Source of the DNA: Vreelandella sedimenti
GTDB taxonomy: Bacteria > Pseudomonadota > Gammaproteobacteria > Pseudomonadales > Halomonadaceae
Length of the DNA stretch: 64,000 nt
Assembly: GCF_013416325.1 (NCBI RefSeq)
Contig: NZ_JACCGK010000010.1
Coordinates: 65,766-129,765, forward strand
Direction of reading: 5' to 3'
The first letter of the stretch is position 1; every line of letters begins with the position of its first letter. The notes below the pieces were generated by a model. The model saw only the letters and a list, made by a program, of their open reading frames with translations, made no database searches and had not been told where the DNA came from. The position numbers and the translations under genes are program-made. Shown here piece after piece: positions 3,416 through 34,857 of the stretch.

Positions 3416-4303
3416 GTGAGTTTTTTACGATTTCTGCCTAGGTCTTGGCGTACCCCTGTTTATTTAGTTGGTTTTATTTTAACCACTAACCCAGCACTGG
3501 CAACTAAATTGCCTCCATCTGTTGCAGTCTTTGACTGGACAATTGCAGAAACACTTCTCTCTCTTGATCCTAGCGCTGTCTCATTGGGCAATATCGCAGC
3601 CTTCCATAAATGGACTGGCGATAACTACAAAGATGTCGATATCATGGATATTGGAACACAGACATTTCCAAACATGGAACTACTAAGCAGCATCGAACCT
3701 CATCATATCCTTCTGTCTCCTAGCCAAGTTCGCCTCGGGCAAAGGTTAGCTAACATTGCACCTTATACCATCATCCAATCTTATCCTTATGTCGGAAATA
3801 GGAGTGGCCGTCTGTGGTCAAGCTTTGATGCATTTGCTCTTGAAATTGGTGTATCAGTCGATCAAAAAGCTGTAGCGGAACAGCTAATTATGGACACACG
3901 ATCTCATCTTGAAGAATTGCGAAGTAACCTAAGCTCACAGCCACCACTGCTAGTTATTCAACTAGTAAATGAGCACTATGTCCGAGTATATGGCGAGAAT
4001 AGTATGTTTCAGGAGGTGCTTCGGCAGTTAAATTTAAGCAATGCATGGACAGAAAAAACCAATCAGTGGGGCTATTCACTAGTAAGCATCAGAGAGCTTT
4101 TCAATGTGGAAGAAGCGAGACTGATTGTCATCGAAAGTGCATTCCCCATAGGTATAGAAAATAATATCGAGACTAGCGGCATGTGGCGTTACCTCCCCAG
4201 TGTCCAGCAAGGAGATTCTGTTGTTTTGTCGTCTTCTTTCTGGATAGCGGGTGCCCTCCCCTCCGCTCAACGCTTTGCCAATGCCTTGGTGAAAGCCCTA
4301 TGA
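3416..4303 (+). CDS. FhuD-like periplasmic iron-siderophore binding protein
   Basis: A 295-residue periplasmic solute-binding protein of the FhuD/BtuF type that would pass ferric hydroxamate siderophores to an ABC permease. The GTG start at 3416 has the strong site AAAGGAG. The N-terminus is a signal peptide ending near ALA (about residue 29). Family landmarks are VAVFDWTIAETLLSL at the mature N-terminus, the LLSPSQ segment, and VYGENSMFQEVL near residue 195. It is clearly paralogous to the protein at 37574 (both share DWxIAETL, RVYGENS and TNQWG motifs). No ABC permease or ATPase gene follows it. The NRPS operon runs convergently and the two are separated by a strong palindromic terminator. 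Confidence 0.88.
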   Translation: MSFLRFLPRSWRTPVYLVGFILTTNPALATKLPPSVAVFDWTIAETLLSLDPSAVSLGNIAAFHKWTGDNYKDVDIMDIGTQTFPNMELLSSIEPHHILLSPSQVRLGQRLANIAPYTIIQSYPYVGNRSGRLWSSFDAFALEIGVSVDQKAVAEQLIMDTRSHLEELRSNLSSQPPLLVIQLVNEHYVRVYGENSMFQEVLRQLNLSNAWTEKTNQWGYSLVSIRELFNVEEARLIVIESAFPIGIENNIETSGMWRYLPSVQQGDSVVLSSSFWIAGALPSAQRFANALVKAL

Positions 4304-4439: not shown

Positions 4440-7400
4440 TCAAGCTGGCACCTGCTCACCGATATACCGATGAGCACTTGCTTCCAGTAGCTCCTCCACC
4501 TGAGATATCAGATCCTCATCCCCAACAATTGAGAAGTGGTCATGGGGAGTCTCAATTGAGGTTCTCGGGATTCGATTTAACTGGTTCGCTAACGCCTGTC
4601 GCTCTTCCCAACCTCTTTTCGATTCCCACCAGCAGTCCACGTCACAGTCCAATGCAGGCAAGGCATCAAGCTGTAGTGAAAGGTACTTCAAATGCCGCGC
4701 CACGCAGAATATTCTAGCAAGCTCCTCGCTACCCAATGTTGCGTAACCCTCACGACCATATGCATCGAATGACGCCATTAGCTTCGACAGCTTAATGGCA
4801 ATCTCCTCCTCACTCGGTTCCTCCTTGCTCTCCTCCTTACCATCCCGAGCTTCAAGCGAAACACTTGGCAGTATTACCGATGCAAAGTTTGCAAAATCTC
4901 GCTGCCAGCTATCCTCGCTGTGCAGTTCACCGCCAGGTATATAGGGATCTATCAAAGCCAGTTGGCTCACATCTTGCCCCAGCCCTTCAAGTCGAGCCGC
5001 GATCAGTGCTGCCAATGCTCCACCAAGAGACCATCCCAATAGGCGATAGGGTCCCACGGGTTGTATGCGACGTATCGTCTCCACATAGTCATCAGCCATT
5101 GTTTCAAGTGAGGTATCTCGATGCTTTGGGTCGGTCAACATTCGGCAAGACAGACCGTAAACCGTGCATACTCCCTGCAAGCGCCGAGCCAACGGTTGAT
5201 AGTCAAAAACCGTTCCCATCACGGCATGAATGCAGAATAGCGGCGGCTGAGTGCGACACTCGCCATTGAGCATGAGAGCCCCTTTGGGCAGAACCTCAGT
5301 GTGATTCCTCACTTCCAGCAGATCAGCAATGGTCGGCTTCTGCATCAGGTCGAATAGCTTGAAGTCGAGTTTAGGTTCCCGCAGCGCTTGCACATGGTTC
5401 ATTACTTTTAGGCTTAGCAAAGAATCACCACCTAATTCGAAGAAATTATCGGTTTCGCCGACCCGCTCAACGCCCAGCACTTGCTGCCAAATCTCGGCGA
5501 GTTGGTGTGCCTCTGGTGTGGAAGGTGCCACGTACTCCCGGGCTTCCCCTAGATGAGGCTCAGGCAATGCTTTGCGCTCCACCTTACCGTTAGCATTCAG
5601 CGGCAGTGCATCGATCGTGACTATTACTCTCGGCACCATATAGTCCGGCAACTGTTGACCCAGTCGCTCTCGTAATGCGCTCGTGTCAAGTTCGATGCCA
5701 GCTTGGGGAACCACATAAGCCACCAGTCTCGAACCGCCGGGGCCTTCTTGTGTTACTACTACTGCCTCGCGAATCTCCGGTTGCGATAGCAGTTCCGCTT
5801 CGATCTCACCTAGTTCTATGCGTAATCCTCGGATCTTAACTTGGTGATCAAGACGCCCCAAGTACTCGAGCTGGCCATCTTCCCGCCAGCGGACCAAGTC
5901 GCCGGTACGGTAGAGACGTTCTCCCGTTGTAAACGGATCAGCAACAAAACGATCTGCGGTTAAATCACTCCGGTTTAGATACCCACGAGCCAGACTTACC
6001 CCGCCCAGGTAAAGCTCACCCGCTACACCCTGTGGCACTAGGTTGAGCTCGCCATCTAACACATAGGTGCGGGTGCCGCTAATGGGCCGCCCAATAGGTA
6101 TCTGGCGTTGAGCGTCATCACGACACCACCAGTGCGTGACATGAATCGTGGTTTCGGTGGGGCCATACAGATCATGCAGATTGGCGCCATCAAGACATTC
6201 AGCTACATCTTGCTGCAGCGACGCTGGAACGGCTTCGCCACCACACATAATATGTTTGAGGCGCGTTTTGGCTCTAACATCGGGATAGGCCAGGAAGGCC
6301 TTGAGCATTGAGGGCACAAAATTGAGCGTGGTGACTCCGTGCCGCTGAATTAGCTCAATGATGCGCTCTGGATCCCGGTGGTCGCCTGGCTGGGCAATCA
6401 CCAAACGTGCCCCGACACTCAGCGGCCAGAAAATCTCCCATACCGAAACATCGAACCCAAACGGCGCCTTGTGCAGTACGGCATCGGTATCGGTGAGTTG
6501 ATAGGTCTCCTGCATCCAGACCATGCAGTTGGTCAAGGCATCATGGCGGATGGCGGCGCCCTTGGGCCGCCCAGTGGAGCCCGAAGTGTAAATCACGTAG
6601 GCGAGGTGCTCGCCGTGCAGCTCCACCGCAGGATTGGAAGATGCATGATGCGCAACGTCCAGACGATCCAACTCAACAACGCTGAGTTTATCAGCTATCG
6701 GCAATGACTCGCGCAAGTGGTGCTGAGTCAGTAGCAGCTCAATGCCACTATCGTCGGCGATGAACGCCAGCCGCTCCGAGGGGTACTCAGGATCCAGCGG
6801 CACATAGGCGCCCCCCGCCTTGAGAATCGCCAACAGCCCCACCACCATTTCGATGGAGCGTTCCATGGCGATGCCCACTCGAGTTTCAGGACGAACACCC
6901 AAACCAATCAAATAGTGCGCCAAACGGTTCGAACGAGTATTAAGCTCGTCATATCTGAGTCGCTGCTCAGCGAAGATTAGTGCCGTGGCCTCAGGCGTCT
7001 TCATGGATTGGCGTTCAATCAGTTGGTGGATTGATTGACCACCGAGATGCAGGTGAGAGTTTTCTCCCCACTCACTCAACAGTTGCCGTTCGTTTTTTCC
7101 TAGCAGACTGATCTCGCTTAATAATTGCTCTGGCGCCGAGTGAAGGCTTTCCACAATGCCGACTACCGCCGCGCGCATGTAGTCACATAGCCGCTGAGCA
7201 CCGACCGAACGGCTCACCTGCCCCACCAATTGAAAGCCTTCTCCCAAATCATCTACCGCCATACCGATGGGATAGTTAGTACGCTCCTGGCCGCCCAATA
7301 CCTCCATGCCTTCCCAGGTATGAACGGAACTTTCATCTTGTTGAGGTGCGCTGTAACGATAGTTCAGTAAACTGGTAAAGAGTGGCGTCCCACCAGGCAA

Positions 7401-10400
7401 TCCACTACAGCGCTGTGCTAGGCCGAGGCTGGCATGCTCGTGGTGCAGTAGTTCAGATAAAGCATTATGAGTATCGCGCAGGCACTGATCGACCCACTGT
7501 GAACCTGTTTTGATGCGCACCGGTAATGTATTGATAAACATCCCCAGCGCTCGTTCGGCCCCTTCCATGCCCTGCATACGCCCAAACAACACAGTGCCGA
7601 ACACGACGTCGTCCTGCCCAGTAGTTTTACTCAGCACCAAGGCCCAGGCTAGGTGGAACAGGCTGGCCGTGCTGACACCATGCCGCTGCGCCTGTCGCCG
7701 CACCTGCCGGGCTAATTCCGATTCAAGAGGAACGCGCACTTCTTCGATATCGCTGCCATCGCCGCGCACTTCCAGCAGCCCAAAGGGCGCCGTGGGTTCC
7801 TTTACCTCACTCAGTTGCTCTCGGAAGAAATTCTCATGCGCTTCTGTACTTACACCCAGCCGGGCCTCCGCTACAAAGTTGCGGAATGGTAGCGGCTTGG
7901 GCAACGCGTCCTCACGCCCTTGCTGGATCAGGGCGATCTCTTTAACCAGTAGCTCAAGGGTGGTGTGATCCATCACTAGGTGGTGACTGGGTAACTGTAG
8001 CAACCACCGCTGTTGCTCGGCATCGTATGCAGCCACCGCCCGTAACATAGGTGCCTGGCGAACATCGAGGCGACGATATTCAGGATCCACCTGAGTGTAT
8101 AACCATTCGGCTAAACGGCCGGTTGACTCATCCGGCACCACTGACCATTCGATTTCCAGCACAGCATGTCTGGAAACCACCTGCACCGGCTCTCGGAGCC
8201 CTTCCCAGAGTACGGCAGTACGCAGAATATCGTGTCGGGCAATAAGCTGGTTAAAACCGGCTATAAAGGCTTCCAGCCGTTCTCGGCTGTCGAAACCTAG
8301 CAAGCGAGGAGCCACGTAGGCATCACCCTTTTGCTGTAACCGGTGGTGAAAAAGGATCCCTTCCTGCAGCGGTACCAGAGGGTAGATATCCTGGATGTTA
8401 GCAGCACCACTCGGCACTGCTGCTTCAATCGTACTGATCTCCTCGGCGTTGAGTTCAATCAAGGTCAACATCTCAGGCTCAATAGCCTGGCACTCACGGG
8501 GGATCCGATTAGGCGGGATGACGATTTCCTGCCGCAATGGCTTTTGTGCAATGGCCTGGACAAAGGCCGCCAATGCTGGGAACTGAAACAGGGTTCGCAC
8601 CTGCGTCGTCAGTCCCAGATGCCGCATTTGCTCCAGCACTTTTAGAGCCAACAGCGAATGGCCCCCCAATTCAAAAAAGTTGTCGTGACGGCCGACACGC
8701 TCAACGCCAAGGACTTCAGACCAGATTGCCGCTAATGCTTCTTCTACCTCGCCCTGAGGCGTCTCGTACTGCAAGCCACTGGCCAAATCCGGCTCGGGCA
8801 GCGCCTTGCGGTCTACTTTGCCGTTAGCATTCAGTGGCATTGCATTAAGGGTAACCACAACTCCTGGAACCATATAATCCGGGAGCTTTTGGCCCAGCGC
8901 TTCACGTAGTGAGCTGGTGTCGAGTTCACTGTCAGCTTGGGAAACCACATAAGCGACCAGCCTCGAACCGCCGGGGCTTTCCTGGGCGACCACCACCGCC
9001 TCGCGAACCGCCGGCTGAGCGAGTAGTTCGGCTTCGATCTCACCTAGCTCGATCCGCAAGCCACGGATTTTCACTTGATGATCAAGGCGGCCCAAGTACT
9101 CGAGCTGGCCACCCTCCCGCCAGCGCACCAGATCGCCCGTACGGTAGAGGCGCTCGCCCTGCGCAAACGGATCAGCGACAAAACGTTCTGCGGTAAGGTC
9201 AGGCCGGTGCAGGTAGCCCCGCGCCAAACCCATACCTCCGAGATAGAGTTCACCTTCGACTCCGGGCGGCGCCAAGTTAAGATCGCTATCCAATACGTAA
9301 GTGCGGATACCGGCGATAGGTTGGCCGATAGCTACCTGGTTGCGCCCATCGTCTTGGCAAGTCCAGTGGGTAACATCGATGGCGGCTTCGGTGGGGCCAT
9401 AGAGGTTGTAGAGTGCCACTTGAGGTAAGCGGGCAAATACCTGATTCTGCAACTCTGCCGGTAGCGCTTCGCCGCTACACACCATGCGTGTCAGGCTGGT
9501 GCAGGCTTCTATCTCTCCATGCGCCAAGAAGGCCTGCAGCATTGAAGGTACAAAGTGCAGTGTAGTGATGTCATGGGTACGGATTAGCTCGACCAATTGT
9601 GACGGTTCGCGATGGGCTCCCGGCGGCGCCATCACCAGGCGCCCCCCCTGCATCAGCGGCCAGAAGAACTCCCACACCGAGACATCGAAGCTGAAGGGCG
9701 TCTTCTGCAGCACCGCATCGTCAGCCGTTAGGCCATAGGCATCCTGCATCCACCGTAAGCGATTAGTCAGTGCATGGTGACGGTTGGCCACTCCTTTGGG
9801 TCGCCCGGTGGAACCCGAGGTGTAAATCACGTAGGCGAGGTGCTCACCATGCAGGGCTACTCCGGGATTATTCGAGGCATAGTGCGCTACTTCTAGACGA
9901 TCCAGCTCGATAACGCTCAGACTCTCAGCTATCGGCAACGTATCGCGAAGATGCTGCTGGGTGAGAAGCAACTCGATGCCGCTGTCTTCGACCATATAGG
10001 CCAGCCGCTCGGAGGGGTAATCCGGATCCAGTGGCACATAGGCGCCACCCGCCTTGAGAATCGCTAGTAGACCCACCACCATCTCGATGGAGCGTTCCAT
10101 GGCGACACCCACCTGGGTTTCGGGCCTTACACCTAGGCCAATAAGATAATGAGCCAAGCGGTTGGCGCGGGTATTGAGTTCGGCGTAGCTAAGTGACTGA
10201 TCTTCGAATACTACTGCCGTGACCTCGGAAGTTGCCAAAGCCTGCTGCTCAATCAGATAATGGACTGGAGAAGTGTCAGAATACTGTTGCTTATCCTCTC
10301 CCCACTCTCTCAACAACTGCTGCTCGTCTGTTCTGAGTAGGCTGATCTCACTTAATGATTGTTGAGATGCAGCTTGCAGACTTTCTACGATGCCTGCAAT

Positions 10401-13400
10401 TGCTGTACTCAGATAGTCACACAGCCGCTGAGCACCGACTATACGGCTCACCTGCCCTACCAACTGGAAGCCGTTACCTAGATCGTCCACCGACATCGTG
10501 ATCGGGTAGTTGGTGCGCTCCTGACTATCCAGCAAAATCATGCCCGAGCTAGGCTGAGAGTCTTCATCCTTTGTCGGGCTATAGCGGTAGTTAAATAGAG
10601 TTGTGAACAGCGGTGTTCTTCCAGGCAGACCGCTGCAGCGTTGCGCCAGGGCGAGGCTCGCATGCTCGTGTTGCAACAGCGCAGACAGGGCCTCGTGGGC
10701 CTGGCGTAGGGAGTTCTCGATGCCTTGGGAACCCGTCTTAATACATATGGGCAGCGTATTGATAAACATCCCCAAAGCCCGTTCGGCACCCTCGGCGCCT
10801 TGCATGCGCCCGAATAACAGGGTGCCAAACACCACATCGTCCCGCCCAGTGGTTTTGCTCAGCACCAACGCCCAGGCCAGATGGAACAGGCTAGCCGTGC
10901 TCACACCATAACGCTGTGACTGTTGCCTCATCTGCTGGGCCAGCTCCACTGGCAAAGGAAGGCGAACTTCCTCTATCTCACTGCCATCGCCGCGAACGTC
11001 TAACAGACCGAAGGGCGCGGTAGGTTCTTCAACATCGCCCAACCGCTCGCGGAAGAAGGCCTCATGCTCTTTCTGGCTTACCCCTAGTCGGGTCTGGGCA
11101 ACGAAATTGCGGAATGGGAGCGGTTGGGGTAATTCATCTTCGCGGTCTTGCTGGATCAGGGTAATCTCTTCCACTAGTAGCTCAAGGGTAGTGTGATCCA
11201 TCACCAAGTGATGACCAGGCAACTGCATTAGCCATCGATCCTGTCTAACATCGTACGCAGCCAGCGCCCGAAGCATCGGCGCTCGCCGCACATCAAGGCG
11301 ATGATGCTCAGGATCCACTTTCGCATTCAGTTGTTCGGCAACGCTTTGTGATGAGGCGCCATCCACGTTTAGCCATTCGAGGGCTAATTCGGCATGCCGG
11401 TATACCACCTGTACCGGCTCGCGCAGGTTTTCCCACAACACCGCTGTACGTAAAATATCATGACGGGCAATCAGCTTATTGAAACAGGCTATAAAGGCTT
11501 CCAGTCGTTCTCGGCTGTCGAAGCCAAGCAGACGCGGGGTGACATAGGCATCGCCTTCTTCCTGCAGCCTATGGTGGAAGAGAATGCCCTCCTGCAGTGG
11601 TGCCAACGGATAAACATCCTGAATATTGCTAGTAACGCCGGGCACTGCCGCTTCGATGGCGCTGATCTCTTCGTCATCGAGTTCAATTAAGGGCAGCATC
11701 TCAGGCTGGAGAGCCTGACAATCTTGGGGGATCCGGTTGGGCGGGATGATTACCTCCTGCCGCTCTGATGTCTGCGTCAGTGCCTGGGCAAAGGTCGCCA
11801 ATTCCGGGTATTGGAACAGCGTGCGTACCTGCGCCGTTAGTCCCCGATGCCGCATTTTCTCCAGCACTTTTAGAGCTAGCAGCGAATGCCCCCCCAGCTC
11901 AAAGAAGTTGTCATGACGGCCCACACATTTGACACCAATCACCTCTGACCAGACTTCCGCCATCGCTTCTTCCACTTCGCCCTGGGGCGGCTCATACTGC
12001 GAGCCACTGGCCAAATCCGGCACGGGCAGGGCCTTACGGTCTACCTTGCCATTGGCATTCAACGGAAGCGACTCCAATGGGATCACAACGCTCGGCACCA
12101 TATAGTCCGGCAGTCGTTGCCCCAGCGCCTCACGTAGTGAGCTAGTGTCGAGCTTGATGTTAGCCTGGGGAACCACATAAGCGACTAACCTAGAGCCGCT
12201 AGAACCTTCCTGAGCTACCACTACCGCTTCGCGAACCTCTGGCTGGGATAATAGCTCGGCTTCGATCTCCCCCAGTTCGATACGTAGGCCACGTATTTTT
12301 ACTTGATGGTCGAGGCGCCCCAGGTACTCGAGCTGGCCATCCTCCCGCCACCGCACCAGATCGCCGGTGCGGTAGAGGCGCTCGCCCTCTGTGAACGGAT
12401 CAGCGATAAAGCGCTCCGCCGTAAGATCACTGCGATTGAGATAGCCACGGGCCAGACTGATCCCACCCAGGTATAACTCTCCAGCCACACCCGGTGGCGC
12501 CAGGTTGAGCTCACCATCCAAGACGTAGGTGCGGGTACCGCTAATGGGCCGCCCAATGGGGATCTGGCGATGAGCGTCATCACGACACCACCAGTAAGTG
12601 ACATGAATGGTGGTTTCAGTGGGGCCATAAAGATCGTGGAGGTGGGCACTATCAAGACACTCAGCCACATCCTGCTGTAGCGTGGCTGGCACGGCCTCGC
12701 CACCGCACATGATATGTTTGAGACGCGTTTTGGCCTTAACATCGGGATAGGCCAGGAACGCCTTGAGCATAGAGGGCACGAAATTGAGCGTGGTCACGCC
12801 GTGCCGCTGGATCAGCTCAATGATGCGCTCAGGATCTCGATGGTCGCCCGGCTGGGCGATCACCAAACGTGCCCCAACACTTAGCGGCCAGAAAATCTCC
12901 CATACCGAGACGTCGAACCCAAATGGCGCCTTATGTAGTACGGCATCGGTATCGGTGAGTTGGTAGGTCTTCTGCATCCAGACCATGCAGTTGGTCAAGG
13001 CATCATGGCGGATGGCCGCGCCCTTAGGACGCCCGGTAGAGCCTGAGGTGTAAATCACATAGGCGAGGTGTTCGCCGTGTAGCGCCACCGCTGGATCGGT
13101 AGCGGCGTGATGTGCCACGTCCAGCCGATCCAACTCAACGACGCTTAGGCCATCAGCGACCGGCAATGACCTACGCAAGTGGTGCTGAGTCAGCAGCAAC
13201 TCGATGCCACTATCGTCAGCGATGAACGCCAGCCGCGCCGAGGGGTACTCGGGATCCAGCGGCACATAGGCGCCGCCCGTTTTGAGAATCGCCAACAGCC
13301 CCACCACCATTTCGATGGAGCGTTCCATGGCGATGCCCACCCGGGTTTCGGGTACTACGCCTAGACCGATCAGATAGTGGGCCAGCCGGTTGGCACGTGT

Positions 13401-24775: not shown

Positions 24776-24833
24776 CGCTAAATCCTCTTCCTGTACCGCG
24801 TTACAAATGATGTTACTAGGCAAGTTTGTCTAC

Positions 24834-27800
24834 TCAGTTGCTATCAAGCTCGGCTAGACCGCTCGTGCTGGCCTCAGCACAACTCTCGCGTAGAGCGGCA
24901 CCCAGCTCAGCGGCAGTGGGGTGATCGAACACCACGCCGGGAGCTATCTCGATGCCGAACTGCTTACGAATGCGTGCCACCAGCTTGATCACCAGCAAGG
25001 AGTGCCCACCCAGCTCGAAGAAGTCGTCATCAATGCCTACCTCATCACGACCAAGCAGCTCAGCCATGGCCTGACACAGGTTGGCTTCCACGGCATCCCG
25101 GGGCTTCACCAAGGTTTTTCTTTCCGCTGTTTTTTGGGCCAAGGCTTCCAGCGCGGGGGTGTCTACCTTGCCGTTACCTAGGCGAGGGAAATGCTCAACA
25201 GGGATAAAACGAGAAGGACGCATGGGCTCAGGCAGTAGCACAGCCAGCTGCTCGCGAAGCTGGGCTTGGCCCTCAACGGACGTTACCTCGGAGTCAGCGA
25301 TCAGGAACGCTACGAGTTCCTGGGTTTCACCGCCCCGACCCATCAGGCGAACCAGGCTCTGTTTAACCCCTGGCTGTGCTTGCAACATGCTTTCGATTTC
25401 CGCCGGTTCGATCCGGAAACCGCGCAGCTTGATCTGATCGTCGACTCGCCCAATAAGGCGTACGCCACCCTCGGGCAGCACGCACGCCAGATCGCCGGTG
25501 CGATAGAGACGCTCACCGGCAATAAAGGGATCTTCGACAAACGCGGAAGCATCGCTATTGAGATAGCCGCGCGCCAGTTGGGCGCCGCCCAGATACAGCT
25601 CACCTACGGCACCGGTGGGGGTCGCATGCAAGTTATCGTCAAGCACTCGATAGCGGCAATTCGGCAGCAACTGGGTTAACGGCAGCGGGCACTCAACGTC
25701 TTGCGACAGCGATACCGGGTGTACCATAACGCCCACCGTGGCTTCTGTGGGGCCATAGTGGTTGTATAGTTGGCACTCGGGCGAAATCCGCGCAATGCTC
25801 GAAAGTAAGGTAGATGAAGTTGCCTCACCGCCTAAAATCAGTGTTTTCGGCAACCGGGGAGCTTCGCACTCCAGCAGGGCCCCCAGATGGGACGGCACTA
25901 TTTTGAGCGCTTCGATATCGGCCGCCGACATAAAATGCGCAAAGTGGTCGCCATCCTGCATATCGTCAGGTGCGGCGATCACCAGGCGAGCACCATTAAA
26001 CAAGGCGCCGAACAGTGCCGTATTGCCCAGGTCAGTAGCCAGCGACCCGGTTAATGCCCAGCTCTGGCATGCCGATAGCCCCATGGCCTTTGTGGCACCG
26101 GCGACGTAATTGAGCAGTTGACCATGCTCGATTACCACACCTTTTGGCGTGCCCGTGGAGCCAGAAGTATAGAGAAGGTAAGCCACGTCGCCGAAGTCTG
26201 GCTCTGGAAACGACAAGGCACTACCCGCTTCATCCACTTCCTGTGGCAGCCTCACACTGCGGGTGCTCGGAAGGTTAAATGCTGCGGGTTCCGCCTCGGC
26301 GTTTTCAGCGCTCACTACTAGTACGGGCTGGGCATCCTCAAGCACCCGACGTTTACGGGCTACGGGCCACTCTGGATCAAGCGGCAGGTAGGCGGCACTT
26401 GCACGCCATACTGCCAGTAGCAGCACGACCAAATCGGTAGAACGGGGCAAATTAAGCGCTACGTAATCTCCAGGCTTGACGCCCTGACCATCCAGCCACC
26501 GAGCGATATCATTAACGCGGGCTTCCAGCTGAGCGTAACTCAGCGTACGGCCCTGCTCCTCAATGGCAATGGCATCCGGCATCGAAGCCGCCCAGGCAGC
26601 AATATGGGCCGCTACGCTACGCTCACCCACGTCAAGCACACTGTCCTCACACGACAGCAATTCCTGCTGTTGCTCAGGGGAGATAAGCGGCACCGAAAAT
26701 AGTTTTTGCGCGGGGTCGGCTAGGCCCGCCTGTAGCAACGTATGGTACTGATCCAGCAGACACTCGGCCGCCGCGCGGCTATAGCAAGATGGGTCGGTGT
26801 AGAGGGCCGCCACTGCGCCGTTCTCGTTGCGGCTAACGTGTAAGGCAAGTTCAAATTCTGCCGATGGCCCAGGCAGTTCTCGCAAGCGCCACTGCAAACC
26901 CGCCGACTTTAACTCACTCACCCCCTCTGAAAATGCGAACCCCGCTGCGAGGTGGCGCTTATCGGGCAGCGCGTCAACCGACCAATACTCTTGAGCCTGG
27001 GTATGCGCCTCTAGCTGCTCTGCTAAACGGGCGATACAACTAGAGAAGTCGCTATCAGCAACACCTTCAACCAGCACCGGCAGCACCTTGTCGAAGAGAC
27101 CGATCGCCCCCTGCATCACCTCGTAGTCGTGGCGGCAGTCGTGTTGCCAGCCGCCAATTACACTCTCATTGCCGCTAATCCTGGCGAGTAACGCCCACCA
27201 AGCCGCCTGCAGCACTGCCTCTGCGGATACTTGAAGCTCATCTGCTAGGCTATCGATACGCGCTACTAGGTCTGGTTCGAGCGGACAGGCCACATATTCA
27301 TGCTCTGCCCGCACGTCATGGCGATGCGCTTGCCTTGCAGGTAAACGGCATGCGCCTGCCTGCTCGGCATGCTGCTGGTGGTTTTGCCAATACTCACGAC
27401 CCTCTTCGGCGTCATCGTCGTTTTCGAGAGAAGCGCGCCACTCGATGAATTGGGAATACTGCAGCGCCGACTCATCATCGGCTCCTCCGCTCTGATCGTA
27501 AGCATCCGCCAACGCCGAGAGCAACGACTGCAGACTGCCGCGATCCGCCACCAACGCCGAAACAGCCAGTACTAATACCCAGGTTATTTCACCCGTTTGC
27601 AGCAGCGCTGGACGCAGCAGTTCGCCACTCTCGACGGCCATGGGCCGGTGTTTCAGTGACTCTCTATAGTTTTTGAGAGCGTCGTTGAGCAGTGGTTCCT
27701 GGTCATCGCTGCCGCGTAAGTCCTCATACCGCCACTCAATAGCAGGTAGTTCTTCAAGCGCCTGGTGTCGCAGCCCGCGATACCCCGCCACGCTCTTCAG

Positions 27801-28022
27801 AGCCGTCGATAGGGCTTCATGCTGTTGCCTAAGATTACTCAGTGCGCTCTCTAGCCGTGAGCTATCAAGCGCACCCTGAATATCTACCACCATGACGTTG
27901 ATCTGCGTCGACGCTGCCTGCTGGGTGCCACCTTCATTAGTTTCCGCCGCTGTCAGTACCGCGCGCTGCTCAGGGCTAAGCGGCCAATGGGCAAGATCCT
28001 GCTGTTCCGTTATCGCATTCAT
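24834..28022 (-). CDS. Aspartate-activating NRPS with inactive N-terminal condensation-like domain
   Basis: A 1062-residue protein with order C-like, A, T. The N-terminal roughly 430 residues resemble the condensation superfamily, but the catalytic HHxxxDG is replaced by VSALVADRG (about 155), so it should not form peptide bonds. The A domain (LLYTSGSTGTPKG) gives the hand-read code DLTKIGHVGK, one residue from the pyoverdine aspartate code DLTKVGHVGK. The carrier serine in GGHS is near 1008. Siderophore NRPSs that make beta-hydroxyaspartate can carry a condensation-superfamily interface domain that recruits the hydroxylase; I infer a related role here. The working C domain and the hydroxylase sit on the preceding protein (gap 25 bases), so this module appears split across two genes. 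The ATG start is preceded by GGGAG. Confidence 0.92.
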   Translation of the reverse strand: MNAITEQQDLAHWPLSPEQRAVLTAAETNEGGTQQAASTQINVMVVDIQGALDSSRLESALSNLRQQHEALSTALKSVAGYRGLRHQALEELPAIEWRYEDLRGSDDQEPLLNDALKNYRESLKHRPMAVESGELLRPALLQTGEITWVLVLAVSALVADRGSLQSLLSALADAYDQSGGADDESALQYSQFIEWRASLENDDDAEEGREYWQNHQQHAEQAGACRLPARQAHRHDVRAEHEYVACPLEPDLVARIDSLADELQVSAEAVLQAAWWALLARISGNESVIGGWQHDCRHDYEVMQGAIGLFDKVLPVLVEGVADSDFSSCIARLAEQLEAHTQAQEYWSVDALPDKRHLAAGFAFSEGVSELKSAGLQWRLRELPGPSAEFELALHVSRNENGAVAALYTDPSCYSRAAAECLLDQYHTLLQAGLADPAQKLFSVPLISPEQQQELLSCEDSVLDVGERSVAAHIAAWAASMPDAIAIEEQGRTLSYAQLEARVNDIARWLDGQGVKPGDYVALNLPRSTDLVVLLLAVWRASAAYLPLDPEWPVARKRRVLEDAQPVLVVSAENAEAEPAAFNLPSTRSVRLPQEVDEAGSALSFPEPDFGDVAYLLYTSGSTGTPKGVVIEHGQLLNYVAGATKAMGLSACQSWALTGSLATDLGNTALFGALFNGARLVIAAPDDMQDGDHFAHFMSAADIEALKIVPSHLGALLECEAPRLPKTLILGGEATSSTLLSSIARISPECQLYNHYGPTEATVGVMVHPVSLSQDVECPLPLTQLLPNCRYRVLDDNLHATPTGAVGELYLGGAQLARGYLNSDASAFVEDPFIAGERLYRTGDLACVLPEGGVRLIGRVDDQIKLRGFRIEPAEIESMLQAQPGVKQSLVRLMGRGGETQELVAFLIADSEVTSVEGQAQLREQLAVLLPEPMRPSRFIPVEHFPRLGNGKVDTPALEALAQKTAERKTLVKPRDAVEANLCQAMAELLGRDEVGIDDDFFELGGHSLLVIKLVARIRKQFGIEIAPGVVFDHPTAAELGAALRESCAEASTSGLAELDSN

Positions 28023-28047
28023 TTATTGACTCCCAATACCCGTGACT

Positions 28048-31000
28048 TTATTGACCGACCAACTCGGCATCGGCACTTGCCCCTTGAGCCTCTTCCAGCG
28101 CCGAACGCTCATAGATGTCTCCCATCGCCACCACAATCTTGCGTGGCCCCTCGTAGGGATCCCGGGCATGGGCCGCTAACATATTGTCGACCATCACCAC
28201 ATCACCCCGGCGCCAGTCGAAGCGCACGGCACAGGCTTCGTAAGCATCACCGACAACCTTCATCATCTCGTCGCTAATCACGGAACCGTCGCCGAAATAG
28301 ACATTGCGTGGCAGGCGCTCCTGGCCAACCATGCCAAGCAGGTCTTCTTTCACATCAGGCTCAAGGCAGCTGACGTGATGGAGCTGCACCTGATTGAAGA
28401 ACACTCGGTCACCGGTCACGGGATGGGTGACTACCGCAGGACAGTGCGTACGCGTCTGCAGCTCATCATCACCCAACCACTGCCACTCGATTCCCGCTTC
28501 TTTGAGCCGCGCTTCCACCTCTTCCCTGCTATCGGTTTTGAAAAAGTCTCGCCAGCTCACGTCCAGGTTGCGGGTGAAGGTGCGCACATAAAGCAGCCCT
28601 TTGCGTTCGAACTCTTCCACCACATCGGCGGGCAGTTGGCGCAACATCTCCCGGCAGTCAACGATCGGGGTGGCGCCTCCCACGGGAGAGGGGAATTCGC
28701 AGAAGAACAGTTGCTTGCGCGGCCAGCGCTCCAAATGCGAACTTTCGTTGTGATAGAGAATCATCTGGCGCTCGGGATAGGGGGTTGAACGGTAGGTATT
28801 GCGCCCCCCTTCTTTCTTGGGCAGGTCACCATAATTACCGTAAAGGCCCGGCTGGATAGCCTCGGCAAAGGCTTCAAACTCTTGCGGTGTGGTCAGACCA
28901 AAATTACGGAACAGAATGCCTGCATGCGTGCGTAAGTGTTGCTCGATAAAGTCACGCTGGGAGGTTGCCCACGCCACCGCATCAAGGTCAGCGTCCGCCG
29001 CTTCGATCACCAGAGGAAAGACTCTTTTTTCGTCGAGCAGCGCCGTTCGTATCGGTGAGTCGCTATTGGTCGAGGGCCGCGCATTTGGCTGGGATTTCAG
29101 GCTGCCAAGCTTGTTGAGTTTGGAACCTTTTGAAAGCTTGTTTTGCATAGCGTGTTTCTCCATTTGGGGTAAGCGAAACTCCTCAACGGGCATGTTGGGA
29201 GCTTCCACGATCTGCGCTAGTAGCGACTGCCAGGCACCGGTTAAGTGCTCAATGGTTTCGCGTCGGTACAAGGCGGTGGCGTAGACCCACTCGACTGATA
29301 GTCCGGTGTCACTCTCATTGACGAATACCGCCATATCGAACTTCGACTCCTGCCTGGGCTGAGGCATTACCTCCACTTCCAAGCCCGGAATTGAGAACCG
29401 CTCGGTTGGCGTGTTTTGTAGTACGAAGAGGGTTTGTATCAGGGGGGAACGGTCGCGCTCACGACCAATCCCCGAAAGCTCGACAATTCTGTCGAAGGGA
29501 ACATTTTGATGATCGAAGGCATCCAGCACGCTGGTCTGTACTTGCTCAAGCCAGTGGCCGAAATCAATCTGGCCATCAGACAAACGAGACCTCAGCGGGA
29601 TTACATTGACAAAAAAGCCAATTAACGGCTCAACATCGGGATGGCTACGGCCAGCGACATCGGTTCCCACAATCAGGTCGTGTTGACGGGTCTGGCGATG
29701 CATCAATAGCTGAAAACTCGCCAATAGAAGCGTAAATAGCGTGGTGCCATGCTGTGCGGCAAGCTTGTTCAACGCTTGTGATAGGTCTGGACTCAGTGTC
29801 ATGCTCAGGGCACTACCGGTATGCGATACTTGGCTAGGCCTAGCGAAATCCCCCGGTAGTGTTGAGAGCGGAGGAACATCACTTAGATAGCGGCGCCAGA
29901 AGGTTGCGCTTTGCTCGAAGGCCTCTCCCGACAGTGCTTTTTCATGCCAAGCGGCGTAGTCCACGTACTGAATACCAAGCTCGGGTAACCCAGATTCCTT
30001 CCCTTCCAGCAATTCCCCATACAGAGAGGCAAATTCCCGGATGAATACGCTCGTGGACCAGCCGTCGAAGACGATGTGGTGAATCACCAGGATCAGTGCG
30101 TGCTCTTGTGCACCAAAACGCAGTAACCCCGCCTTAATTAAAGGTCCAGTGGCAAGATCTAACGGTGTGTTCGCATACTCGGTAAAAGTATCTTGCAGAT
30201 ATCGCTGTTGCTCCGGCTCTGCAAGATCGCTGCAGTCCAAAACAGGAAGTTCGATGTTTCGCTGATCCTCTACAACCGCGATGGGATCACCGCTCTCGCT
30301 TTCAGGGTAGTGGGTACGCAATGCTTCATGCCGCGCAACGATGGCATTAACGGTTCTTTCTAGAACCTCTATATTCAACTCCCCTTTCAGGGAAAACAGC
30401 GCTGGAAGGTTATAGGCGGCACGCTCACGGTCGCCCGCCTGACTCGCCAAACGATCAACTAACCAGAGCCGGCGCTGGACAGGTGCCAAAGGTAGTTCCG
30501 AATTCCGGGGAATCGGCATCAGTGGATTTTGGATAGCTCCCTGACGAAAAGCCGAAGGCTTCGCTAACCGGCGCTCTACTTCATCAACCACATCACTAAA
30601 GCGCGGCTTTTCCATGACCGATCTGGTCGGGAAATCAATCGCCCAATGATCGCTAATGCGTGAAGCCAACTGCACCGCCGCCAGCGAATTACCCCCGCTG
30701 GCGAAGAAGTGAGCATTGCTCCCCAGTGGCGTTACCTTGTTGTCTCCCAGCACTTGGCGCCAGAGCGTCGCTAACGCCTGCTCCGTTTCGCTCCCTGCTT
30801 CCGCAGTAGATTGCGATGACTTTCCACCACCAGCATCCCCATCGCTGCCGCCACTGACAAAATGCCCAAAGGCGTGAATGGCGTAGGCATCCAGGCTACC
30901 CGCTTCCCAGCCTTGGCGGCAGGCGCTGCGCTGCAGTTTGCCGCTAGAGGTTTTGGGAAGGCCTCCAGAGTTAAGCAGTAACACTACCGAAAGCGGCTGA

Positions 31001-32655
31001 TGGCAAGTGCTCCCCACTGTCTCGCTTAGCGCTTCGACCAACTTATCGGCGAGCACTAGTTTCTGCATACCGCGGGAGACTTCTGCCGCGACGCCAATCC
31101 CTTCAGCGCCTTCGGGGGTGGTCACTGCAAAGGCCGCCACGCGCCCTTTGCGCACTGCTTCCACCTCGGCTTCGATAGCGCTCTCGATATCCTGGGGGTA
31201 GACGTTATGGCCGCGCAGAATGATCAGGTCTTTAATACGCCCGGCGATATACAGCTGCCCTTCGTGCAGAAAGCCTAGATCGCCAGTGCGCAGCCAGCGA
31301 TCATCGCGGGCATCGTGGTTCTGTGCATCAGTATCATCGGTTCGCTGCCAACTGACCCCATCGCGGGTGACAAAGGTTTGAGCTGTTGCTTCTGGGTTCT
31401 GCCAATACCCATGTGCCACGCTGGGCCCATTGACCCAGATCTCGCCGACGTCACCACTGGGCAGCGAGTGAAGCCCCTCAGGATCGACAATATCGATAGC
31501 GTGACCGGGTTCCGGTGTACCGCAGCCCACCAGGGTGTTGCCTTCAACCGCTGAGGCAGCCTTTCCCTCGGCCAGCGACTGTTGAGAAAAAGCCGTGCCC
31601 ACCATGCCCGTACCGCGCGAATTACAGCTAACCAATAGCGTCGCTTCAGCCAAGCCATAACAGGGTGCTGCGGTATCAGCGGCAAAGCCCGCTGGGCGGA
31701 AGCGTTCAATAAAGCCAGTGAGGGTTGCGTGGCGTACCGGCTCGGCGCCTGAGAACGCGACCCGCCAGCTGGATAAATCGAGTGTCTCAATCTGTTCGTC
31801 GCGAATACGATCAAGGCACAGCCGGTAGGAGAAATCGGGGCCACCACTGATGGTACCCCGGAAGCGCGAGATCGCCTCTAGCCAGCGTACCGGCCGCTGC
31901 AGAAAGAAGGTCGGGCTCATCAGCACGGAGGGAATGCCACGATAGATGGGCTGCAGCAGGCCGCCAATCAGCCCCATATCGTGGTAAAGCGGTAGCCAAC
32001 TAACGAAGACATCGTCAGCACCAATCGAGAAACCTGTCTCGATAGCGCGCTCGTTGGCCATTAGGTTGCCATGGCTCACCATCACCCCTTTGGGCGTGGC
32101 CGTGGAGCCTGAGGTGTACTGTAAAAAGGCGATATCACCACGCTTTGGGTGATGCTCAATCCAGTGTTCAGCGCGGCTCTCATCCACGGCATCCACGGGG
32201 ATCAGTTCAGTGCTGCCGAAGCCTTCGCTTGCGGATGCGACCACATCGATAATCGTTGTAGAGGTAAGCACACAGGCAGCCTGGGAGTCGGCGGCAATGG
32301 CGAGCAGGCGCGCCAAGTGCTGCTGCTTAGCCGACTCCGGCGGAAAGACCGGCACGGCAATCATCCCGGCATATAGGCAGGCGAAGAACGCCACCACGTA
32401 GTGCTCATCATTATCCAGCAGGATCAAGGCACGCTCACCAGCCGGGAACCGCTGCTGTAGCTCGCTGGCCAAAGCACGCGAACGCTTCTCCAAGGTGGCG
32501 TAATCAAGGGTGGTATCACCTTGAGCGTTCACCACAATTAGCGCCCTGTCATGGGGCCTTTCCTGGGCTAAGCGAATTAAATGCTCTACAAAGTTGTTAG
32601 AAACACCGTTGTGGGGCGAGCTACTGCAAGTTGTCTGGGCGTGCCTTGTATCCAT
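28048..32655 (-). CDS. FAAL-ACP-condensation-beta-hydroxylase fusion NRPS (starter module)
   Basis: A 1535-residue starter protein. Residues 1-590 are a fatty-acyl-AMP ligase (YTSGSTATPKG, WLPLYHDMGLIGG) that activates a fatty acid. A carrier domain follows with its serine in SGGNS near 657, then a C domain with intact HHIVFDG near 859, which should acylate the first amino acid. After a short Lys/Ser-rich linker, residues about 1210-1510 form a TauD/TfdA-type non-haem Fe(II)/2-oxoglutarate oxygenase like SyrP. It has HNE (about 1299) as the metal HxE pair and a distal AAHARDPYxGPR for iron and co-substrate binding. The hydroxylase is inferred to act on carrier-bound aspartate of the next protein, giving beta-hydroxyaspartate, an iron ligand. 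It is fourth in the operon, 11 bases after the phosphopantetheinyl transferase stop. The acyl tail predicts an amphiphilic siderophore. Confidence 0.93.
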   Translation of the reverse strand: MDTRHAQTTCSSSPHNGVSNNFVEHLIRLAQERPHDRALIVVNAQGDTTLDYATLEKRSRALASELQQRFPAGERALILLDNDEHYVVAFFACLYAGMIAVPVFPPESAKQQHLARLLAIAADSQAACVLTSTTIIDVVASASEGFGSTELIPVDAVDESRAEHWIEHHPKRGDIAFLQYTSGSTATPKGVMVSHGNLMANERAIETGFSIGADDVFVSWLPLYHDMGLIGGLLQPIYRGIPSVLMSPTFFLQRPVRWLEAISRFRGTISGGPDFSYRLCLDRIRDEQIETLDLSSWRVAFSGAEPVRHATLTGFIERFRPAGFAADTAAPCYGLAEATLLVSCNSRGTGMVGTAFSQQSLAEGKAASAVEGNTLVGCGTPEPGHAIDIVDPEGLHSLPSGDVGEIWVNGPSVAHGYWQNPEATAQTFVTRDGVSWQRTDDTDAQNHDARDDRWLRTGDLGFLHEGQLYIAGRIKDLIILRGHNVYPQDIESAIEAEVEAVRKGRVAAFAVTTPEGAEGIGVAAEVSRGMQKLVLADKLVEALSETVGSTCHQPLSVVLLLNSGGLPKTSSGKLQRSACRQGWEAGSLDAYAIHAFGHFVSGGSDGDAGGGKSSQSTAEAGSETEQALATLWRQVLGDNKVTPLGSNAHFFASGGNSLAAVQLASRISDHWAIDFPTRSVMEKPRFSDVVDEVERRLAKPSAFRQGAIQNPLMPIPRNSELPLAPVQRRLWLVDRLASQAGDRERAAYNLPALFSLKGELNIEVLERTVNAIVARHEALRTHYPESESGDPIAVVEDQRNIELPVLDCSDLAEPEQQRYLQDTFTEYANTPLDLATGPLIKAGLLRFGAQEHALILVIHHIVFDGWSTSVFIREFASLYGELLEGKESGLPELGIQYVDYAAWHEKALSGEAFEQSATFWRRYLSDVPPLSTLPGDFARPSQVSHTGSALSMTLSPDLSQALNKLAAQHGTTLFTLLLASFQLLMHRQTRQHDLIVGTDVAGRSHPDVEPLIGFFVNVIPLRSRLSDGQIDFGHWLEQVQTSVLDAFDHQNVPFDRIVELSGIGRERDRSPLIQTLFVLQNTPTERFSIPGLEVEVMPQPRQESKFDMAVFVNESDTGLSVEWVYATALYRRETIEHLTGAWQSLLAQIVEAPNMPVEEFRLPQMEKHAMQNKLSKGSKLNKLGSLKSQPNARPSTNSDSPIRTALLDEKRVFPLVIEAADADLDAVAWATSQRDFIEQHLRTHAGILFRNFGLTTPQEFEAFAEAIQPGLYGNYGDLPKKEGGRNTYRSTPYPERQMILYHNESSHLERWPRKQLFFCEFPSPVGGATPIVDCREMLRQLPADVVEEFERKGLLYVRTFTRNLDVSWRDFFKTDSREEVEARLKEAGIEWQWLGDDELQTRTHCPAVVTHPVTGDRVFFNQVQLHHVSCLEPDVKEDLLGMVGQERLPRNVYFGDGSVISDEMMKVVGDAYEACAVRFDWRRGDVVMVDNMLAAHARDPYEGPRKIVVAMGDIYERSALEEAQGASADAELVGQ

Positions 32656-32666
32656 ATGCGTACCTA

Positions 32667-33443
32667 CTAAAAGTTCGAATCCTGGAGATAGTGAGTCAGT
32701 AAATGACGTTGGTAATTTGGCAGTGCCGCGGGGTACTCACGCTTTATAGCCCCAACCCCGCAGGCAACATGCGCCATATCGACATAACCCAGGGCAGCGG
32801 CATAGCCACTCGGCGCTGGCAGCGGCCATGCCTGCAAAGGTGATGACACGGGAAGTGAGTGCTTAAGGTGATAGGTGCCTGGCGGCCCTAAAGAGGAAGT
32901 GATCGAGAGCGACCGCAAATGATCAGCAATGCCCAGGCCCAAAGCTTTGAGCACCGCCTCTTTAACCACCCAGCGCTCCATGAAGGGCAGCGCGGAGCTG
33001 TCGCGTGCGTGGTCGAGCTGCTCACTCGGCGATTGCACCAGCCCTTGCAGCGGCGCCAGTTCGGCCTCGGGTCGGCAACGCTCAATATCGACCCCCACCG
33101 CGCCGCCGGGAGCAAGCGCGATCAGGGCGACATGGCCAGAGTGGGAGACATTGAAAGCAGGCCCATCAGTGTTTTCCAACGCTGGTTTGCCGTAAGCGTT
33201 CTGAGTGAACACCAACTTTTCAGGCGCCACGCCGGTGCGCGCTGATAGCAGTCGCCGCAGGGCAGCGCGTGTCGCCACGGCGCGTACGACATCGGCGTGA
33301 TGGCGAAGCCGCTGGGCACGCTGCCACTCGGCTTGACTCAGCAACCGATCATCTTCGTCAGCCACCGGGGCGTTCAGGTCGAGCGCTAAGCGCCATACCT
33401 CAAGCCCCTCGGGCACCCCTTCAGCTAACCGCAGGCGCTGCAT
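32667..33443 (-). CDS. Sfp-type 4'-phosphopantetheinyl transferase
   Basis: A 258-residue enzyme that moves the phosphopantetheine arm from CoA to the carrier-domain serines of the NRPSs. Motifs are FNVSHSG, the metal-binding GVDIE and WVVKEAVLKALG, in family order. The ATG at 33443 is chosen because GAGGAGG lies just upstream; the longer frame starts with TTG. It overlaps the thioesterase gene by 23 bases, so translation is probably coupled. The size fits the Sfp/EntD group. In this operon its targets are the eight carrier domains encoded downstream. Confidence 0.92.
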   Translation of the reverse strand: MQRLRLAEGVPEGLEVWRLALDLNAPVADEDDRLLSQAEWQRAQRLRHHADVVRAVATRAALRRLLSARTGVAPEKLVFTQNAYGKPALENTDGPAFNVSHSGHVALIALAPGGAVGVDIERCRPEAELAPLQGLVQSPSEQLDHARDSSALPFMERWVVKEAVLKALGLGIADHLRSLSITSSLGPPGTYHLKHSLPVSSPLQAWPLPAPSGYAAALGYVDMAHVACGVGAIKREYPAALPNYQRHLLTHYLQDSNF

Positions 33444-34161
33444 GAGGCACCTCCTCAAGCCGTCGGGCCAGTGCCCGCTTTATGGTTTCCAGCACTTGAG
33501 ATTGCTGCTGGCGAATAAAGAAGTGCCCTCCTTCGAACCAGTCTAAAGAGAACGCCCCACCCGCTTCCCGCTGCCACGCTTCCAGGCGCTCTTGCTCAAT
33601 ATCGTCTTCACGCCCGGCGAGTACCTGTAGGGGGTAAGCAAGCGGCGACCCGCCGCGATAACGAAAACTGCGACAGAGGCGATAGTCCGCTGCCAACACA
33701 TCAAGAGTGAGGCGCAGCAGTTCCGGGCTTTCGAACACTTCCTCTGGGGTGCCGCCCTGCTGGCGTAGATCCGCAATCAGGGCCTTATCGTTATCAAGCC
33801 CCGCCAAGCGCTCTGAGTCGCGCATTGAGGGCGCCGTGCTGCCTGAGGCGAACAGCATCCGCGGCTGAGGTCGCCCTACATCGCGCAAGCGAGCTGCCAT
33901 GCCGTAGGCCAACAACGCCCCCATGCTGTGACCGAACAGGGCAAAGTCGCCGCGCATCCGTGTTGCCTGCTCTTCGCACAGCCGCACGACCTGGGTCTCG
34001 AAGTCGTCGATCAGCGGCTCGCCCAGGCGTTCGCCACGCCCAGGTAGTTCGACGGGATATACCTCGATCCAGGCGGGCAACTGACGCTTCCAGCGCAGAT
34101 ACATGGTGGCGCTAGCCCCGGCACAGGGCAGGCAGAGCAGCCTTAAACGCTTAACCTGCAT
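33421..34161 (-). CDS. Type II thioesterase (NRPS editing)
   Basis: A 246-residue alpha/beta hydrolase of the GrsT family that clears wrongly loaded carrier domains. The start at 34161 ([17 protein letters not shown]) gives the standard length and begins at the family N-terminus; the upstream extension in the open frame has no family resemblance. The nucleophile is in [11 protein letters not shown]. The LPGRGER motif is typical of the family, and the catalytic His is in EGGHFFI near the C-terminus. It overlaps the end of the mbtH-like gene by 11 bases and the phosphopantetheinyl transferase by 23, forming a tight operon. Confidence 0.92.
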
Positions 34162-34396
34162 CCACCTGCTCCGCCTCAGCGTTAGCCTGCTCATCCATCC
34201 ACTGGCGCAGCGACAGTGGCCGCATGTCAGTCCAGGTCTTTTCGACGTAGTCGAGGCAGGTTGGCTTATCGCCGAGTACACCGGTATCGGTCCAGCCAGC
34301 GGGAATCGCTTTCCATTCTGGCCAGAGGGAGTACTGCTCTTCGTGGTTGACTAATACGCGGAAGACACCATCTTCACGATCAAAACAGCTTGTCAT
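34151..34396 (-). CDS. MbtH-like NRPS accessory protein
   Basis: An 81-residue MbtH-family protein, a small partner that binds and activates NRPS adenylation domains. The family core is visible: [17 protein letters not shown], then IPAGWTDTG, then [14 protein letters not shown]. The ATG at 34396 is preferred over an upstream TTG in the same frame because it gives the usual MbtH N-terminus ([10 protein letters not shown]). It is the first gene of the biosynthetic operon, about 66 bases after an exact iron-starvation sigma box, and it overlaps the thioesterase gene. Confidence 0.95.
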
Positions 34397-34650: not shown

Positions 34651-34857
34651 TCAGTTGCGCTCATCACCACTTGGAATCATCCCCGTTAGCAGCCATAGCT
34701 GTTCGGCTTCACGAAATACACGGCGGTGCTGAGAAGAAGCCGCTAACCACGCATGAAGCGCCTCGCGATCAGCGTCGCTCAACGTCTCTTCATGCTCACG
34801 CATCAGCCAGTCTAGCGCCGTTTGCCAAACGGCATCATCGCCGCTGTCGTTATCCAT
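34651..34857 (-). CDS. Small DUF4880 (FecR N-terminal-like) protein, possible anti-sigma factor
   Basis: A 68-residue protein that matches the N-terminal cytoplasmic domain (DUF4880) of FecR/FpvR sigma regulators: WQTALDWLMREHE, then SDADREALHAWLAASSQHRRVFREAEQLW. A full FecR protein would continue with a membrane segment and a periplasmic receptor-sensing domain; both are absent, and the frame ends cleanly with a stop. It lies 123 bases downstream of the ECF sigma gene in the same direction. The start is uncertain: ATG at 34857, or TTG at 34869 for 72 residues. It could be a soluble anti-sigma (or pro-sigma) factor, or a remnant of a full-length gene. No downstream remnant of the missing part was recognised. 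Confidence 0.7.
   Translation of the reverse strand: MDNDSGDDAVWQTALDWLMREHEETLSDADREALHAWLAASSQHRRVFREAEQLWLLTGMIPSGDERN

Follow-up and report, generated by a model that had tools for sequence, protein, structure and literature searches.

A 64,000-nucleotide stretch of the genome of the halophile Vreelandella sedimenti (contig NZ_JACCGK010000010.1; hereafter the window) carries a nonribosomal peptide synthetase (NRPS) operon that we predict to assemble a fatty-acylated heptapeptide siderophore. The operon is intact on the minus strand from 34396 to 4440, with every frame open, and encodes an MbtH-like protein, a type II thioesterase, a phosphopantetheinyl transferase (PPTase) and four NRPS proteins, here called A to D. 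All eight matches to PF00668 in the whole 5.06-Mb genome lie inside this line. The features are given below with domains abbreviated as A, adenylation; C, condensation; FAAL, fatty-acyl-AMP ligase; ACP and PCP, acyl and peptidyl carrier proteins; TE, thioesterase; TauD, TauD-type hydroxylase. C* is a C domain without the HHxxxD motif, and X and Z are two A-domain codes that each occur twice.

34154..34396, minus: MbtH-like protein (PF03621)
33421..34281, minus: type II thioesterase (PF00975), real start probably more internal
32667..33458, minus: 4′-phosphopantetheinyl transferase (PF01648)
28048..32655, minus: NRPS A, FAAL-ACP-C-TauD, starter and Asp β-hydroxylase (Pfam, motifs)
24834..28022, minus: NRPS B, C*-A(Asp)-PCP, Asp code DLTKIGHVGK (Pfam, codes, motifs)
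26655-27989, minus: C* domain of NRPS B, ahead of the Asp predicted to be hydroxylated
18260..24823, minus: NRPS C, two modules (Pfam, codes)
22340..22861, minus: pocket of A(X1), DAEYIGAISK
19106..19627, minus: pocket of A(Ser1), DVWHVSLIDK
4440..18263, minus: NRPS D, four modules and TE (Pfam, codes, motifs)
15771..16292, minus: pocket of A(X2), DAEYIGAISK, probably Arg
12537..13058, minus: pocket of A(Z1), DVWNMGLIHK, predicted N5-acetyl-N5-hydroxyornithine
9309..9830, minus: pocket of A(Ser2), DVWHVSLIDK
6075..6596, minus: pocket of A(Z2), DVWNMGLIHK, C-terminal residue

Domain order and residue codes

NRPS A supplies the FAAL-ACP lipid starter, for which the fatty-acyl-AMP-ligase models match strongly yet under their curated cut-offs, and has no amino-acid A domain. 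Its fused TauD-type hydroxylase is followed by the Asp module of NRPS B. NRPS C reads C-A(X1)-PCP-Cdual-A(Ser1)-PCP and NRPS D reads C-A(X2)-PCP-Cdual-A(Z1)-PCP-Cdual-A(Ser2)-PCP-Cdual-A(Z2)-PCP-TE, so that the module order specifies seven residues: Asp, X, Ser, X, Z, Ser, Z. A motif check recovered eight carrier Ser residues, GWSLGG in the TE, HHIVFDG in the C domain of NRPS A and HNExxH in TauD, and Pfam gave no ketosynthase (KS) match in the four NRPS proteins.

Codes were read from an alignment of 148 A domains from this line and its relatives. The register is supported by the recovery of Ser (DVWHVSLIDK), Asp (DLTKIGHVGK) and Thr (DFWNIGMVHK) codes equal or nearly equal to published ones (PMC4786211, Table 2; PMC12283262). 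A literature search returned no paper containing DVWNMGLIHK, DAEYIGAISK or DAEYCAAISK, nor the eight-letter forms DVWNMGLI or DAEYIGAI, although it would miss any code set out one letter per table cell, as in PMC4786211. PDB searches using the X and Z pockets gave general A-domain matches only.

Dual C/E domains are defined by an extra N-terminal HH(x)nGD motif alongside HHxxxD. The motifs HHxxxxxGD and HHxxxD were found together in four C domains, which fit the dual type, and because of these motifs X1, X2, Z1 and Ser2 are predicted to be D and the remaining residues L. An earlier note on this DNA had proposed the same D/L pattern, which these four domains bear out, and its gene content, order, strand and coordinates (4440-34396) agree with the Pfam and open reading frame analysis. 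Its code for X, DAEYCAAISK, was shifted by one residue at positions 299 and 301 and is corrected here to DAEYIGAISK.

Assignment of Z

Our initial reading, modelled on PMC4786211, took X as hydroxyornithine and Z as Thr, which would give acyl-OHAsp-AcOHOrn-Ser-AcOHOrn-Thr-Ser-Thr (OHAsp, β-hydroxyaspartate; AcOHOrn, N5-acetyl-N5-hydroxyornithine), also a hexadentate product. The malleobactin code for hydroxyformylornithine, DGEYTGGITK, matches X at 6 of 10 positions (PMC4786211), and the X clade adjoins the clade of DGE-type codes in our pocket tree. This reading was overturned by a survey of relatives, which we now describe.

We searched 275 genomes of the family, this one (G000) included, and fetched and read the matched lines. 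Twenty lines were counted as complete (G000, G010, G023, G024, G027, G193, G202, G207, G208, G210, G214, G220, G237, G242, G247, G251, G256, G258, G259 and G269), a count that includes G024, with its last module in a separate frame, and G214, with its monooxygenase on another contig. Z pockets occur in 20 of the 275 genomes, an ornithine monooxygenase in 28 and DGE-type pockets in 9. The monooxygenase of the present line straddles the edge of the window:

1..965, plus: L-ornithine N5-monooxygenase, C-terminal part (PF13434), gene start left of the window, whole gene G000:C2:65351-66727

It scores 410.7 bits against PF13434, and the runner-up in the genome 38.8 bits, making it the sole strong match to this family. 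All 20 Z genomes have a monooxygenase, and five of the eight monooxygenase genomes without Z have a DGE-type code (G214, G247, G258, G151 and G192). Taken alone, this co-occurrence would be weak evidence for Z, because siderophore lines of Halomonadaceae usually carry a monooxygenase.

The composition of the complete lines is more telling. In five of them (G210, G237, G242, G251 and G269) the only codes besides Z are Asp, Ser and Gly, so that with Z read as Thr these lines would keep a monooxygenase without a module for its product. Asp, Z and DGE modules together total three or four in 20 of 20 complete lines; if Z is left out, 17 of the 20 have fewer than three iron-binding modules. Lines G251 and G247 share an identical residue order, and where G251 ends Z-Z, G247 ends with DGEACAGVTK twice. 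Several observations pull the other way. In three of the genomes with a monooxygenase (G267, G012 and G245) both Z and DGE codes are missing; G267 and G012 are cut by contig ends, and G245 is known from one cut monooxygenase contig. A total of three is no rule, since four iron-binding modules are predicted for many relatives; hydroxylation of every Asp is not required; and the G237 monooxygenase has one in-frame stop.

The pocket itself points in the same direction as the survey. DVWNIGLIHK, one residue from the Z code, is listed among fifteen codes for Nδ-modified ornithine, with the exact modification not tellable (PMC12283262), against an older in-silico label that gives DVWNIGLI as Thr (PMC3358349). 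In the pocket tree, which used 119 of 186 rows with at most eight rows per code from outside our own set and drew long-branch warnings, Z groups with Ser domains (100/99), apart from Thr domains of sister lines in the genus. Two residues are reported as typical of Thr A domains (PMC11267755); on our mapping of these to 236 and 331, the His (331) is present in Z and the Phe is not.

Two lines outside the family carry the neighbouring code. Massilia atriviolacea has DVWNIGLIHK with a monooxygenase and a formyltransferase nearby, and Methylosinus trichosporium OB3b has it three times on plasmid pOB3b3 (L119), with a monooxygenase on the same plasmid. Neither is a clean exclusion of other carriers of hydroxyornithine, as DLKNVGSDVK and an X-like domain are also present in the former, and DGEDHGTVVK and DIWELTADDK in the latter. 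The pOB3b3 line, FAAL-A(DGEDHGTVVK)-polyketide synthase (PKS), TauD and three DVWNIGLIHK domains, probably makes a lipopeptide siderophore in its own right.

Z is therefore assigned with high confidence as a hydroxyornithine-derived residue on comparative grounds, and its code seems to be a way of selecting hydroxyornithine that derives from Ser; the exchange of roles, with X as hydroxyornithine and Z as Thr, is now very unlikely. The earlier note had left either X or Z as possible hydroxyornithine, and the comparison with relatives decides for Z and not X. It had also judged Z equally Thr-like and hydroxyornithine-like, which the grouping with Ser and the missing Phe do not support. Its C-terminal Ser-hydroxyornithine holds up, as do its residue order, fatty-acyl heptapeptide, single β-hydroxyaspartate and two hydroxamates, on the domains, codes and relatives.

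Acyl group of the hydroxamates

Genes for both an ornithine N5-monooxygenase and an N-acyltransferase are at hand, the hydroxyornithine modules being assigned by comparison with relatives. A GNAT acetyltransferase gene lies just left of the window edge, and because it is the only acyltransferase found in the stretch read around this line, an acetyl group is predicted here. GNAT adjoins the monooxygenase in 16 of the 20 complete lines. Three others (G193, L080:4415-5260; G220, L085:13896-14753; and G256) have no GNAT, and a gene matching the formyltransferase family, by Pfam run for G193 and G220 and by similarity for G256, stands in its place beside the monooxygenase; for G237 the retrieved sequence stops within the monooxygenase. 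Both enzymes occur in G202 and in the incomplete lines G267, G223 and G151. The formyltransferase-only lines keep Z pockets that are 90-97% identical to Z1. It thus seems to be the adjacent gene that sets the acyl group, with the Z domain unchanged, a pattern that would fit a Z domain loading N5-acyl-N5-hydroxyornithine.

Assignment of X

The Arg consensus is D, A/V, E, D, I/V/L, G, A, V/I, T/D, K (PMC12283262), and X meets it at 8 of 10 positions, among them Ala236, Glu239, Ile299, Gly301, Ala322 and Ile330. The closest domain from outside Halomonas, DAEYIGAITK of Massilia (pocket identity 0.70), lies in the X clade (99/93), is one position nearer the consensus than X and stands between FAAL and PKS, the position taken by Arg in variochelin (PMC10999976). 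The code at that FAAL-PKS position in Variovorax-type domains is DAEDLGAITK, 10 of 10 to the consensus. X at 85% identity or more occurs in this genome (twice), G024, G214, G267 and G151. No second genome with two X pockets was found among the 275 at E 1e-40, the DGE domains of G192, which give weak X matches, set aside.

Against Arg, Tyr278 and Ser331 of X fall outside the consensus, and the malleobactin code shares Glu239 and Tyr278 with X (PMC4786211). In the tree, X and the DGE hydroxyornithine clade form a weakly supported group (89/66) to which the included Variovorax domain does not belong, and the Variovorax-type lines, which have Thr, are not those of variochelin. A search for the true variochelin line in 399 genomes of one family gave three matches at E 1e-200; the FAAL-A-PKS-TauD starts in G522 and L098 belong to lines with Thr, both truncated by the limits of the retrieved sequence or contig, so that Pro could lie farther along. 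On account of this separation of X from the Variovorax domain in the tree, Arg is graded somewhat lower, as is the overall reading of the product.

Arg nevertheless remains the likely identity of X, at a confidence well short of that for Z. Another basic residue (Lys, Orn or diaminobutyrate) beside a hydroxyornithine Z is unlikely: Tyr278 in place of Asp278 and the separation from the Variovorax domain would suit it, but the six consensus residues named above and the Massilia neighbour favour Arg. Much less probable still is a hydroxyornithine-type residue at both X and Z. The adjacency of the X clade to DGE domains would fit such a product, with five bidentate groups, but five modules would stand here against the three or four counted in the 20 complete lines, X uncounted.

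Exchange of an A-domain core

A line in Halomonas socia CKY01 (G024/L100) has the same codes at six of seven positions, with NRPS A 81% and NRPS B 75.5% identical to ours, and differs in a Ser code replacing X at residue 2 and in the separate reading frame of its last module. Along NRPS C, identity to the H. socia homologue is 0.63-0.95 by alignment window except at the extreme N terminus and in windows starting at residues 652-800, where it is 0.24-0.57. The low-identity stretch at 652-800 is the core of A1 (22340-22861), X here and Ser in H. socia. Within our own line, X1 and the Ser and Z modules have A-domain flanks about 0.6-0.95 identical by alignment window and cores of 0.27-0.41, and X1 and X2 share cores of 0.86-0.93, with C domains of just 0.2-0.45. 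On these identities, the difference at residue 2 is a swap confined to the A-domain core, a route to diversity already documented (Baunach et al. 2021, PMC8097286).

Predicted hydroxylation of Asp

In aligned lines the C domain preceding TauD keeps HHxxxD, and the motif is missing in 16 of 16 C domains best matched by the C* query, which precede a TauD-partnered Asp A domain. We infer that acyl-Asp condensation would be carried out by the C domain of NRPS A, with C* as a docking element. Reitz et al. in 2019 reportedly described an interface-type C domain, a member of the C superfamily that lacks HHxxxDG and is tied to a siderophore Asp hydroxylase; C* was compared with this definition at the HHxxxD motif, which it lacks. 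A C* without HHxxxD might also be taken as a sign that the whole line is degenerate or silent. This is scarcely credible given the open frames, the eight carrier Ser residues, the intact TE motif and the same C* feature in all 16 such domains. The β centre of the OHAsp is uncertain, because the fused TauD type is assigned L-threo-OHAsp in one source (PMC7100376) and the fused domain of variochelin reportedly gives the erythro form, a point against threo, in another (PMC10999976).

Release of the product

The code DGEAVGGVTK adjoins the TE in G258, G259, G222 and G151 and ends a broken frame in G223; Z is also present elsewhere in G222, G223 and G259. Line G258 ends Thr-Ser-DGEAVGGVTK and potashchelin ends Thr-Ser-cyclic OH-Orn (PMC7100376), and by this analogy we read DGEAVGGVTK as the code of a cyclising residue and Z as that of an acylated one. 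The product end would therefore be linear, which we consider reasonably probable. Release of the terminal Z as cyclic N5-hydroxyornithine, the ending of the Halomonas compounds potashchelin and loihichelin (PMC7100376, PMC6836290), is the less favoured course, though a serious one; the separate TE-adjoining code suggests that a cyclised residue has its own domain, and between the pockets of Z1 and Z2 the identity is 92-98% by alignment window.

In G223 (L086, L087 and L138) the NRPS and monooxygenase frames are in many pieces, which would fit either a decayed line or an error-rich assembly.

Neighbouring genes

Ferric-siderophore uptake genes adjoin the NRPS operon. Left of the window, beyond the GNAT gene, lie an exporter, a siderophore-interacting protein (SIP) and a FecCD permease. 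Within it are:

1085..3253, plus: TonB-dependent receptor (Pfam)
3416..4303, plus: periplasmic binding protein, siderophore type (PF01497)
34651..34869, minus: 72-aa DUF4880 protein (PF16220)
34981..35586, minus: extracytoplasmic function (ECF)-type sigma factor (Sigma70 r2/r4)
36810..38431, plus: ABC ATPase and second periplasmic binding protein (Pfam)
38453..40621, minus: second TonB-dependent receptor (Pfam)
40853..41641, plus: FhuF-type ferric reductase (Pfam)
41666..43363, minus: ABC exporter, candidate for product export (Pfam)

The DUF4880 protein beside the ECF sigma factor may be the N terminus of a FecR-type anti-sigma factor minus its remainder. A third TonB-dependent receptor lies at 55310-57367, about 12 kb past the siderophore genes.

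Predicted siderophore and its relatives

From these domains, motifs, codes and co-occurrences we predict the following route, including its substrates, stereochemistry, C* role and transport. FAAL would load a fatty acid onto the ACP of NRPS A, whose C domain would join it to Asp held on NRPS B; the fused TauD would hydroxylate this bound Asp, with C* serving as a docking platform and not a catalyst. Collinear extension would follow, four residues being epimerised by dual C/E domains, the Z modules would take up N5-acyl-N5-hydroxyornithine supplied by the monooxygenase and GNAT acetyltransferase encoded next to the line, and the TE would release the product. Fe(III) would be held hexadentate by OHAsp and two hydroxamates, and the ferric complex would return via the TonB receptors, FecCD permease and FhuF/SIP reductases encoded nearby.

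The product is thus fairly likely to be an amphiphilic mixed α-hydroxycarboxylate/hydroxamate siderophore with this order, mechanism and Z, together with Arg at X. The exact structure, acyl-L-threo-β-OHAsp-D-Arg-L-Ser-D-Arg-D-AcOHOrn-D-Ser-L-AcOHOrn, is offered tentatively, with the odds somewhat against every detail being right. Calculated [M+H]+ values for two Arg and a linear AcOHOrn end are 1162.643 (C12:0) and 1190.674 (C14:0), for a cyclised end 1102.621 and 1130.653, and for two Lys in the linear C12:0 form 1106.630.

It looks like an additional member of the marinobactin/potashchelin kind of marine siderophore. Marinobactins, aquachelins and amphibactins have a C terminus of AcOHOrn-Ser-AcOHOrn style, with other residues ahead of it. 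Potashchelin (Halomonas sp. MG34, ptc cluster, PMC7100376) shares FAAL-ACP-C-TauD followed by C-A(Asp)-PCP, MbtH, type II thioesterase and PPTase, dual C domains, monooxygenase, acyltransferase and TE, but has nine residues with two OHAsp and one cyclic OH-Orn, compared with seven residues, one Asp, two hydroxamate modules and two X here; its order, OHAsp-Ser-Gly-Ser-Ser-OHAsp-Thr-Ser-cOHOrn, is not matched by our codes. Loihichelins (Halomonas LOB-5, PMC6836290) share OHAsp, AcOHOrn, Ser beside a terminal hydroxyornithine and a fatty tail, and differ as octapeptides with Gln and dehydroaminobutyrate and no basic residue. Variochelin (PMC10999976) shares the acyl starter, Arg, fused TauD for OHAsp, Ser and two AcOHOrn, and differs in its Pro and its PKS extension of Arg, our line having no KS domain. 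In A. chroococcum an amphibactin-like line on a plasmid has the order DGE-DGE-Ser-DGE, a hydroxyornithine code of a different lineage from Z. The comparison with named Halomonas siderophores covered loihichelin and potashchelin, neither of which has the composition predicted here, so that the product could yet be identical with aquachelin, halochelin or sodachelin. No other family line read has the same residue order.

Other heads and orders occur in the family. Line G242 (L041-L043) has two fused C-TauD units, predicting two OHAsp, in the order Asp Ser Gly Asp Z Ser Ser Z. Asp is followed by DIWQLTADDK in G193, G207, G220, G023, G256, G202, G208 and G027. We take this code to resemble those for diaminobutyrate (Dab), in which case marinobactin-like OHAsp-Dab heads would be possible in Halomonadaceae.

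Taken together, it is slightly more probable than its negation that the operon makes an undescribed, doubly Arg-bearing cationic lipoheptapeptide, one of a Halomonadaceae series re-specified residue by residue through A-core swaps, with hydroxyornithine A domains descended from serine-type domains and not from the Glu239 lineage of malleobactin and the amphibactin-like line, and with one pocket that accepts either acetyl- or formyl-hydroxyornithine, depending on which acyltransferase gene lies beside it. The formerly ambiguous reading of X and Z becomes a testable structure, and the natural one-residue swap between two species marks where an A domain is exchangeable with the reading frame of the line unbroken. 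These results support a second, Ser-derived hydroxyornithine code in Halomonadaceae.

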